NCBI RefSeq assembly: GCF_024506395.1
Contig: NZ_JANIBO010000001.1
Span: 124,001-188,000 of the forward strand
Direction of reading: 5' to 3'
Length of the DNA stretch: 64,000 nt
Origin: Cetobacterium sp. NK01
GTDB taxonomy: Bacteria; Fusobacteriota; Fusobacteriia; Fusobacteriales; Fusobacteriaceae
A model generated the notes under the pieces. It searched no databases and was not told the DNA's origin. It saw only the letters and a program-made list of their open reading frames with translations. Both the position numbers and the translations under genes were made by a program. Positions 50,865 to 53,531 of this stretch are shown piece after piece; within the stretch, counting starts at the first letter, position 1; every line of letters starts with the position of its first letter.

Positions 50865-50892
50865 AAAAAGAAGAGTCGAAACTCTTCTTTTT
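50865..50892 (-). terminator. Terminator of the SIR2-like/alarmone-synthetase unit
   Basis: A 12-bp stem AAAAAGAAGAGT / ACTCTTCTTTTT closed by CGAA; T-run on the - strand directly after the stop at 50891. Confidence 0.88.
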
Positions 50893-51679
50893 ATTTGAAT
50901 TTTAAATCCAACTCTCTAAAATTATCTTCTAAACCTTTTCCATTAGAAAACTCTTTTTTTATTTTTTTTATAAACATCCCCATTTCATCAGCACTTCCAA
51001 CTATTCTATTAAATATACCTAAGTATTCAGTTATAATTGGATTATCTACATCGTAAGGATATCTCATTAAATGATCAATCTCACTCCAAGCTTCTTCAAA
51101 AACTGTTCTTACTTGAATTTCAACAAGTACTTCATCTTGCTTTGTAACTGGAACTCCTATTAAGTAGTGTATCGATCTATAACCGTGATCTCTAACTATA
51201 ATCTCACAATCTAAATCTTGAATTGTATTTTTGAGATCTTGGATATTATAATCCCCTCGTCTAATATTTATTTGAGGAGTTTCTTTTGTATCCCATAATT
51301 TTGTTATTTCACAATGAATTCCACGCCAGTCATCTTTAAATAAATGTAGCACACGTATTCCAATAAGATCAGTTATAATCTCCTTGTAATTCTCTACATT
51401 TATTCCACGATCTGCGTATTTTCTACCTTTTCTTATGATTTTTTCAATAAGATGTGTTGCTCTTTTTACTCTTCTTCTAACTGAGTGAACTCCTTCACTA
51501 TCAATTAATTTAGATACTATGTGTTCAGCTTCTTTTTCTAAATAAGGAACTAATTTTATATAGTCAGCATAAATTTTCATAAGCTCATCCCAGTTAAGAC
51601 CAGTTGAGTGAAAATACTCCTCTGTTATACAGAAAGCTTTAAAAAATTCTTCTCTGTCTATTGTATTATCTAATATCAA
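50891..51679 (-). CDS. RelA/SpoT-domain (p)ppGpp synthetase-like protein, small form
   Basis: 262 residues from a TTG at 51679, for which AAAGAGG is 8 nt upstream; a GTG at 51688 directly abuts that site and is less likely. The synthetase fold is clear: ITDLIGIRVLHLFKDDW, RDHGYRSIHYLIGVP and VEIQVRTVFEEAWSEIDHLM with the catalytic Glu. There is no HD hydrolase, TGS or ACT domain, so it is of small-alarmone-synthetase size. It is the last gene of a unit with the SIR2-like and frameshift ORFs. Whether it makes (p)ppGpp or modifies RNA like toxic SAS enzymes is open. Confidence 0.85.
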   Translation of the reverse strand: MILDNTIDREEFFKAFCITEEYFHSTGLNWDELMKIYADYIKLVPYLEKEAEHIVSKLIDSEGVHSVRRRVKRATHLIEKIIRKGRKYADRGINVENYKEIITDLIGIRVLHLFKDDWRGIHCEITKLWDTKETPQINIRRGDYNIQDLKNTIQDLDCEIIVRDHGYRSIHYLIGVPVTKQDEVLVEIQVRTVFEEAWSEIDHLMRYPYDVDNPIITEYLGIFNRIVGSADEMGMFIKKIKKEFSNGKGLEDNFRELDLKFK

Positions 51680-51695
51680 ATTAAACACCTCTTTA

Positions 51696-52472
51696 TTATT
51701 TTCTAGGTATCTTCTCTAATGAAATTTCACAAGTTTTTCTATAAGCTACTGCTTCAGTAGTTTTTATCTCTCTTTTTTCTACTGATGTAAGTGTAACTAT
51801 TTTCTCTCTAATATTAAAGTCATTTCCTTTAATAATGTGAATTCTTTCAACAGATATTCTATCTCCTTCAATTAACTGAACTTTATCTAAGTTACATCTA
51901 AAGTTTACCCAACTTTGAAGTGTTGGAGTTTTATCAATAAGATTTAATAAAGCAAGAGAATACAAAGAGTTTTCTTCTTGTAATAACTTCTCTTTTTTTA
52001 TTTCCTCTAATCCTAAAATCTCTTTTTCTAATAAATCTAACTTCATAATTTCTATTCTATTCTCAAAAGATACCTTCCCTGTAACCAATTTTCCAGTTAG
52101 CTGGATAAGATGTCCCATAAAGATCTCTTTTAAAAATCTTATATTGAACATAAATCTTTTGATATTACTGCATTGATATATCTTGTAATAGTAATTATTT
52201 ATTACTGTATTAAAAGATCCATCCTCTTTTAAATCAATCTCTAAACCTAATTTAAACTCTCTGTTTTTTAGTTCTAAATATTTTTTTCTGTTTATTTCAA
52301 CTATTCTACTATGACAGTCTTTTATATGTAGTTCCTCAACTTTTAAATCGGTAACCCCAAAAGTTTTTATTAGGTTTTGATTTTTCATATCTTTTATCGT
52401 AGAAAATTCAATTGGTAACCTATCCAATTTTAAAGAGCTATACCTTATTTCTAAGGCACTCTCTAGAATCAT
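51696..52472 (-). CDS. Unrecognised C-terminal domain, probably translated by -1 frameshift from the SIR2-like gene
   Basis: 258 residues from the first in-frame ATG, but the frame is open further upstream to beyond 52676 and codes an acidic, gene-like linker (E/D/T-rich, for example TTEILEIRTESEENTDIST). Between the slippery site and 52472 there is no ATG, GTG or TTG codon in frame, and the ATG at 52472 lacks a ribosome site, unlike nearly all genes here. The domain appears beta-rich with no recognised family. Most likely it is the C-terminal part of a 596-residue fusion (51696-53485). A true frame-disrupting mutation or sequence error is the alternative. Confidence 0.7.
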   Translation of the reverse strand: MILESALEIRYSSLKLDRLPIEFSTIKDMKNQNLIKTFGVTDLKVEELHIKDCHSRIVEINRKKYLELKNREFKLGLEIDLKEDGSFNTVINNYYYKIYQCSNIKRFMFNIRFLKEIFMGHLIQLTGKLVTGKVSFENRIEIMKLDLLEKEILGLEEIKKEKLLQEENSLYSLALLNLIDKTPTLQSWVNFRCNLDKVQLIEGDRISVERIHIIKGNDFNIREKIVTLTSVEKREIKTTEAVAYRKTCEISLEKIPRK

Positions 52473-52657
52473 AAAATCTTCATTCTTAACATCTAATACT
52501 TTTGGATCTCTTATTTCATCTTGTTTCTCTTCTTCTGTTGAAATATCTGTATTTTCTTCAGATTCTGTTCTAATCTCTAAAATCTCTGTAGTCTCTTCAT
52601 TAACTACTTCCTCTTTTAAAAATACTTCATCTACTATTTCATCAGAATTTTCTGAAG

Positions 52658-53485
52658 TTACCGAAAGAGCTTTTTTCCAATATATGCCTCTTTTAATTCA
52701 GATTCATCCATTGAGTTTGAACATAAATATCCTTTTAGTTCTTTAAAAAACTCCTCTTCACTATGCGGCAGAAGTTTTACTCCTAGCTCATTTAATCTTT
52801 CAATTGTTTTTGTTTTTAAAACATTTGAATTACTTACAGCGTAAATAACATCTTTAGTATTTACATCTGTTAATACAGCCTCTAGCATATCTATAAAATC
52901 TGAGTTATTTAAGTCTAATCCTAAAATTAGCGTTGGATAATTTTCTATATCCTCTTTAATACCTCTAAAAAAGTTTTTGTAGAAATCTAAAACTTTTAAC
53001 TTTCTAAAGTCTTGGATAGAAACAAAAATCTTCTCGTGTCTATTCACATCCCCAAGGATTTTGTAATGCTTAACCTCTCCATTCGATGCCATTGCCAACT
53101 CTTCATCTGTCGGTAGTATTTTAACTACTTTGTTTGAATTTATATCATCTAAAACTATATCATAATCTGTTGAAAAAACAGCATTAATCTTATTACTTTC
53201 AGAGAAAATATTTAGTACCTCTGCAGTTTCTCTGTTTGTTTCGTACAAATTTTTGATTTTTTTCAATAATGAACTTCTACTGCTAACAACTCCATCTAAG
53301 TAAACTTGGCTAACTTGAAATAAAGAATTTTCATCTCTTATATAACCTTTTATATTTTCTTTCATATCTTTCATTAACAGTTTTGCTAACTCTCTTCTTG
53401 TTGGATATCCAGCGTTTCTTACTAAAAAATCACCTAAAAAAAGATTAATTTTATCTGTATCATTAAATTTATTGAAAAAACTCAT
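52658..53485 (-). CDS. SIR2-like domain protein with degenerate active site
   Basis: 275 residues. The plan fits SIR2_2-type domains: NLFLGDFLVRNAGYPT near the N-terminus in place of GAG-x-S, FSTDYDIVLDD (about 104-114) in place of TTNYD, YKILGDVN (141-148) in place of K-x-HGD, PTLILGLDLNNSDF (184-197) in place of the lfiGyS-D strand, and a C-terminal YAVSNSN/LGVKLLPHSEEEF. The catalytic Asn is Asp107 and the catalytic His is Leu144, so NAD hydrolysis is doubtful. The gene ends GGA AAA AAG CTC TTT CGG TAA, with a -1 slippery site. A SIR2 fold is my inference from motif order. Confidence 0.75.
   Translation of the reverse strand: MSFFNKFNDTDKINLFLGDFLVRNAGYPTRRELAKLLMKDMKENIKGYIRDENSLFQVSQVYLDGVVSSRSSLLKKIKNLYETNRETAEVLNIFSESNKINAVFSTDYDIVLDDINSNKVVKILPTDEELAMASNGEVKHYKILGDVNRHEKIFVSIQDFRKLKVLDFYKNFFRGIKEDIENYPTLILGLDLNNSDFIDMLEAVLTDVNTKDVIYAVSNSNVLKTKTIERLNELGVKLLPHSEEEFFKELKGYLCSNSMDESELKEAYIGKKLFR
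52670..52692 (-). promoter_or_regulatory. Putative programmed -1 ribosomal frameshift site (A AAA AAG with upstream SD)
   Basis: On the - strand the heptamer A AAA AAG (52676-52670) lies in the zero frame of the SIR2-like gene, four codons before its TAA. AAGAGG (52692-52687) ends exactly 10 nt upstream, the spacing and type of the dnaX stimulator in E. coli. Slippage by -1 joins AAA AAA GCT CTT TCG GTA to the open downstream frame. A weak hairpin (TCAGA/TCTGA) starts about 14 nt downstream. Confidence 0.65.
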
Positions 53486-53531
53486 AGTAACACCTCTCTT
53501 TCTTTAAAAAATAAAACACTTTGGCAATATA

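Follow-up and report, generated by a model that had tools for sequence, protein, structure and literature searches.

A programmed −1 ribosomal frameshift of the dnaX type very likely (probability about 0.85) operates in a non-mobile chromosomal gene of Cetobacterium sp. NK01 and of its relatives in one family of the Fusobacteriota; no expression data are available, and the efficiency of slippage is inferred. The gene is located in a 64,000-nucleotide stretch (positions 124,001 to 188,000 of contig NZ_JANIBO010000001.1), hereafter the window, from the first letter of which all positions are counted, and the features of the locus are all on the minus strand. In the proposed mechanism, in-frame reading would stop three codons past the heptamer A_AAA_AAG and yield a SIR2-like protein of 275 amino acids, and a −1 slip would extend it by an acidic linker followed by a second domain, giving a product of 596 amino acids.

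The 0-frame ORF of the short form (52658..53485), with a SIR2_2-like (ThsA-like) domain recognised by domain match, is preceded by the Shine-Dalgarno sequence GAGAGG (53493..53498), which is located 7 nt 5′ of the ATG and is kept within the genus. The ORF ends with the codons GGA AAA AAG CTC TTT CGG TAA, in which the slippery heptamer A_AAA_AAG (52670..52676) is in the slippage phase, and its TAA stop (52658..52660) is within the 5′ arm of the RNA helix described below. Upstream, an internal Shine-Dalgarno-like AAGAGG (52687..52692), a putative 5′ stimulator, is separated from the heptamer by exactly 10 nt (CATATATTGG). The −1 frame is open through to 51696, and the earliest ATG or other standard start codon in it is at 52472, without a ribosome site. 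This frame comprises the acidic linker (52458..52670), which is of variable length and has 71 codons here, as delimited by comparison within the genus, and a conserved distal domain of no known family (51696..52457), which ends at the fusion stop. The shifted product would thus consist of 272 + 324 = 596 amino acids, with a predicted junction-spanning peptide containing YIGKKALSVTSEN. These observations, on which the sequence-only reading had based a dnaX-like shift with two products of 275 and 596 residues, held on re-examination, including both lengths, and it is only the production of the two forms that remains inferred.

ARAGORN, run on every tRNA region located in the genome, gave five tRNA-Lys genes, all with the anticodon UUU and none with CUU; in Escherichia coli, the slipperiness of A_AAA_AAG has been tied to a single tRNA-Lys of this type (PMC5009743). 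The earlier likeness to dnaX therefore held for the heptamer, the spacing of the upstream Shine-Dalgarno element and the tRNA-Lys set. On codon statistics restricted to the window genes and the retrieved loci, not the whole genome, the in-phase heptamer was present in 15 of 202 Lys-Lys pairs of the window genes. Since by itself it is no rarity in such an AT-rich genome, the argument must be carried by conservation.

The gene was present in 11 of the 12 genomes of the genus, and all ten complete loci keep the heptamer, a stop three codons beyond it and an open −1 frame; the most divergent member (L012, 55% identity) retains the slip-site arrangement as well. Linker length ranged from 29 to 266 codons over these loci, with no conserved start codon. 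Among nine close loci, the codon varied at 115 of 175 invariant residues, and AAG was fixed in a single Lys column, that of the heptamer. A GAGG was found at the matching upstream place in 9/9 close loci; the Shine-Dalgarno-like element was weak or absent in L012, in L072 and in genus g8, and is thus not universal across the family. The expectation of the sequence-only reading, that heptamer and Shine-Dalgarno element would be conserved while synonymous sites vary, was accordingly fulfilled for the heptamer, and for the Shine-Dalgarno element in the close loci only. It had also named two outcomes that would refute it: a run of seven A on re-sequencing, and close relatives with an intact fused frame and no slippery heptamer. 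Neither was met, as the independent genomes all have six A, and the close relatives retain the heptamer and include no plain in-frame fusion. The programmed frameshift is supported on firmer evidence than had been claimed, without wet-lab proof.

The sole nearby in-frame case was genome G014 of the sister genus, with an A9 run at the same place and near-identical context after it. Its junction (L067) reads TTA AAA AAA AAA GCT CTC TCG GTA ACT, by which the gene is put in frame and the short-form ending is left in another frame; this could represent a slippery arrangement in inverted form or a difference of one base in the assembly.

Over the phylum, 98 Fusobacteriota genomes were searched (genera are labelled with g-numbers, g1 and g2 being Cetobacterium and its sister genus), and relatives were confined to one family. 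Where a split locus showed both parts, the second was in the −1 frame in 32 of 32 cases and never in +1, and 28 of the 32 had an in-phase A_AAA_AAG or A_AAA_AAA located 16–22 nt, mostly exactly 19 nt, before the end of the stop. Two g6 genomes (L089, L090) have C CAA AAA CAG instead of the heptamer, which may be an A_AAA tetramer slip site, together with a strong hairpin at the stop. No recognisable slip site and no A-rich site was found in two g3 genomes, despite the C-terminal part being in the −1 frame; these loci (L068:3743-3877:+ and L069:4111-4245:-) share GGTGATGC and TATGCCTRA, followed by a strong hairpin, and the g3 locus L070 is truncated at a contig end. A single fused ORF with a long linker was present in part of g5 and in g11, g12 and g14, from which it follows that the fusion is a real protein and that the shift is its expression route elsewhere. 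Frameshifted genes were placed on both sides of the midpoint in a tree of the first domain, and the shift may be as old as the family, depending on the root.

In addition to this family-wide occurrence, the sequence-only reading had missed the nature of the 3′ element, in Cetobacterium a helix with a distant partner strand in place of a local hairpin. The first 20 nt downstream of the heptamer were scanned against distant sites, with 27 control segments. The sequence UCGGUAACUUC, which starts 5 nt past the heptamer and includes the stop, pairs with GGRRUUACCGA, i.e. the GVTD or GITD codons of the distal domain. In the window, the 5′ arm UCGGUAACUUCAGA (52651..52664) begins 5 nt after the heptamer, and the 3′ arm UUUGGGGUUACCGA (52348..52361) is located in FGVTD codons of the distal domain, both arms being defined by partner scan, pairing table and folding. 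The top-scoring partner was the same site in 11 of the 12 g1/g2 genomes; L005 has the expected partner, but an alternative at 789 nt scores better. None of the 27 control segments performed as well in any of the 12 genomes. The complementarity itself was present in 12/12 genomes of Cetobacterium and the sister genus, with an arm distance of 152–899 nt that tracks the length of the linker.

Over the 14 pairs, 95.7% of cells were standard pairs, against at most 56% with a slid register, and compensatory changes were found: C-G, U-G and U-A alternate at one pair, A-U is changed to U-A in the sister genus, and two genomes combine a GTT-to-ATT (Val-to-Ile) change in the 3′ arm with a matching C-to-U change in the 5′ arm. 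Thermodynamic prediction with flanks of 150–200 nt gave pair probabilities of 0.87–0.999 in all 12 genomes. When the 3′ site alone was recoded synonymously, a probability of >0.9 was retained in only 3–20% of trials; protein sequence thus explains part of the complementarity, not its consistency. At the 3′-arm site the Thr codon ACC is fixed in 12/12 genomes, whereas it accounts for 3 of the 166 Thr codons in the rest of the region, and in other genera the codon at the homologous site is nearly always different (ACT, ACA, TCA, GCT etc.), ACC being present in L090 only. On the 5′ arm, CGG is fixed and is the sole CGG among the window genes sampled, and amino acids do not explain the G of this arm, as in the −1 frame it ends a TCG, ACG or CAG codon. 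The helix is a conserved RNA complementarity shown computationally; its effect on slippage is inferred.

A second, weaker complement, GATARGTTACCAATTG (GATARGTTACC), in LDRLPIE or LDKLPIE codons roughly 60 nt 5′ of the main partner, was present in some loci (L002, L004, L005, L006 and L008), not all, and could possibly compete with the long-range helix.

A local 3′ hairpin in Cetobacterium was considered and rejected, the TTCAG..CTGAA stem being weak and its z-score not significant in most loci. In genus g4, a local hairpin (GGUAGUAU..AUACUACC or GGUAAUAUC..GAUAUUACC) starts 5–7 nt past the heptamer, with a shuffle z of about −3 to −4 and three pairs altered in both strands, one of them divided as A-U 5, G-C 5. 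Similar hairpins were found in two g5 loci and in both g6 loci. Local folding and the distant-partner scan gave no convincing 3′ helix at the g8 and g13 slip sites, and there was no Rfam match at the site. That the position of the helix is kept while the partner is local or distant is the strongest hint of an action on the ribosome at the slip site, which is itself an inference.

The first domain was matched by PF13289 (SIR2_2) in 23 of 23 members, and the family profile of this domain retrieved ThsA (6lhx, E = 2e-12) and KomC (5e-7), so that the SIR2-like assignment made earlier held. What had been missed is the loss of the catalytic histidine: the His of the ThsA motif YKMHGD is replaced by L, F, M, N or Y in 23/23 members, and in Cetobacterium the TNYD motif has Asp in place of its Asn; no PADLOC defence model matches. 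These His and Asn residues are the catalytic residues of ThsA-type NADases, and with their loss NAD hydrolysis is unlikely. The first domain is thus inferred from sequence to be a catalytically dead ThsA-like SIR2 domain, and both its lack of activity and the function of the fusion are inferences. For the distal domain, no credible match was found in Pfam, NCBIfam, PADLOC or the PDB. AlphaFold confidence was low for the two domains (pLDDT 31 and 42), because only few sequences were aligned.

The next gene (50891..51688) was identified by domain match as a RelA/SpoT-type small alarmone synthetase, which is the neighbour also in g1–g6 and g11; the downstream neighbours in g8 and g12–g14 are other genes. 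In the g8 locus L091, a Lon protease gene is located just upstream and a glutamine synthetase III gene downstream in place of the alarmone synthetase, and L092, L093 and L100 are similar loci. A functional link of the gene with the synthetase is possible.

By inference from what is known of dnaX, AAA AAG would occupy the P and A sites and tRNA-Lys(UUU) would re-pair one base back, while the ribosome would be held by the upstream AAGAGG and by the helix beginning 5 nt past the heptamer, so that a fraction of ribosomes would slip and the rest terminate. The short and long forms would have an oligomerising SIR2-like scaffold in common, by analogy with gamma and tau, and may co-assemble at a set ratio in which only some subunits carry the distal domain; there are no data on oligomerisation. 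More speculatively, as the 3′ arm is located in a region read only after the shift, ribosomes on the distal domain might open the helix and lessen further slippage in a self-limiting feedback. Two caveats apply to the helix: co-transcriptional translation could block a helix of 300–900 nt for the leading ribosome, and the protein constraint on GVTD supplies part of the 3′-arm complementarity for free.

Among the rival explanations, the one that survives best, yet is unlikely, accepts the frameshift and denies stimulation: the long-range complementarity would serve mRNA stability or control of termination at the stop in the 5′ arm, or reflect protein and codon constraint. In its favour, the GVTD codons give part of the complementarity, the arms are separated by hundreds of nucleotides of translated RNA, and the g8 and g13 slip sites lack such a helix. 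Against it are the rare codons on both arms, the compensatory changes, the dnaX-like 5-nt spacing and the local hairpin of g4 at the equivalent place. Transcriptional slippage on the A run, as in Thermus dnaX, is very unlikely. A9-type runs do occur in G027, G028, g8, g13 and G014, and homopolymer slippage substitutes for ribosomal slippage in some dnaX genes (PMC3711429); however, in the window and most relatives the run stops at A6 before a G and has stayed A AAA AAG without extension, and the −1 direction, the Shine-Dalgarno spacing and the helices fit ribosomal slippage. Two separate proteins, the second made by translational coupling or reinitiation downstream of the stop, are likewise very improbable: part of g4 and L087 do have a −1-frame GTG or ATG close to the stop, but no start codon is conserved, the first one in the window comes 62 codons after the stop and lacks a ribosome site, the linker varies from 29 to 266 codons, and fused homologues exist. 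A sequencing error, pseudogene or phase-variable gene is all but excluded, since numerous independent assemblies from different species and genera share the arrangement and both parts are conserved as protein, even though homopolymers are error-prone and G014 differs by one A.

Ribosomal frameshifting of the dnaX type thus remains the preferred reading, and it adds a shift kept across a bacterial family to the conserved frameshifts in non-mobile chromosomal genes, which a major review called few (PMC5009743). The natural alternatives (in-frame fusion, A9 run, local hairpin and long-range helix) show the evolution of such signals, and the shift explains why gene callers would split the gene. 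It also reveals an unstudied dead-SIR2 protein, inferred as such, usually adjoining a small alarmone synthetase. The GeneTack survey covered only four Fusobacteria genomes, and SIR2 is not in its main text (PMC3711429). Distant-acting recoding features have been named for luteoviruses, HIV, herpesvirus mutants and yeast antizyme (PMC5009743), and stimulation by a distant helix is known from plant viruses; no bacterial long-range frameshift stimulator was found in the literature searched, outside which most subscription journals fall, so absence is unproven. A bolder reading, to which we incline by a narrow margin, is that a long-range stimulator acts here on a cellular −1 frameshift, the first such case, in which a helix over 150–900 nt of coding sequence would set the ratio of two dead-SIR2 forms and couple slippage to ribosome occupancy of the distal region, related genera using a local hairpin.

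Compared with known systems, the slip mechanism is familiar from dnaX and csoS2, and what is new is the long-range helix in 12/12 genomes of Cetobacterium and its sister genus. The features of a dnaX-type signal, i.e. a conserved in-phase X_XXY_YYZ heptamer, a Shine-Dalgarno element about 10 nt upstream, the position of the 3′ helix and tRNA-Lys(UUU) as the single tRNA-Lys type, are all met. E. coli dnaX (gamma/tau) has the same A_AAA_AAG, a Shine-Dalgarno-like element 10 nt upstream, only tRNA-Lys(UUU), a helix about 5 nt downstream and two products with a common N-terminal part; it differs in being an unrelated gene, whereas here the shift would give the long form and the 3′ helix of Cetobacterium is long-range. 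In some bacterial dnaX genes the long form is made by the shift, in the orientation proposed here (PMC5009743). The carboxysome gene csoS2 is likewise a non-mobile bacterial gene from which two forms of a scaffold-like protein are made by −1 slippage (PMC5009743), but its shift gives the short form, its 3′ structure is local, no Shine-Dalgarno stimulator is apparent, and the protein is unrelated. The first domain is homologous to ThsA of Thoeris (PF13289, SIR2_2), unlike which it lacks the catalytic His in all members and, in Cetobacterium, the TNYD Asn. In Barley yellow dwarf virus, efficient −1 slippage needs an RNA interaction 4 kb downstream (PMC7618472), in a viral and eukaryotic setting where the partner of the distant site is a local stem-loop; the corresponding feature, distant pairing with covariation just 3′ of the slip site, is met here in a bacterial mRNA by a direct helix of 11–14 bp with a partner 152–899 nt away, the stimulation of slippage being inferred only.
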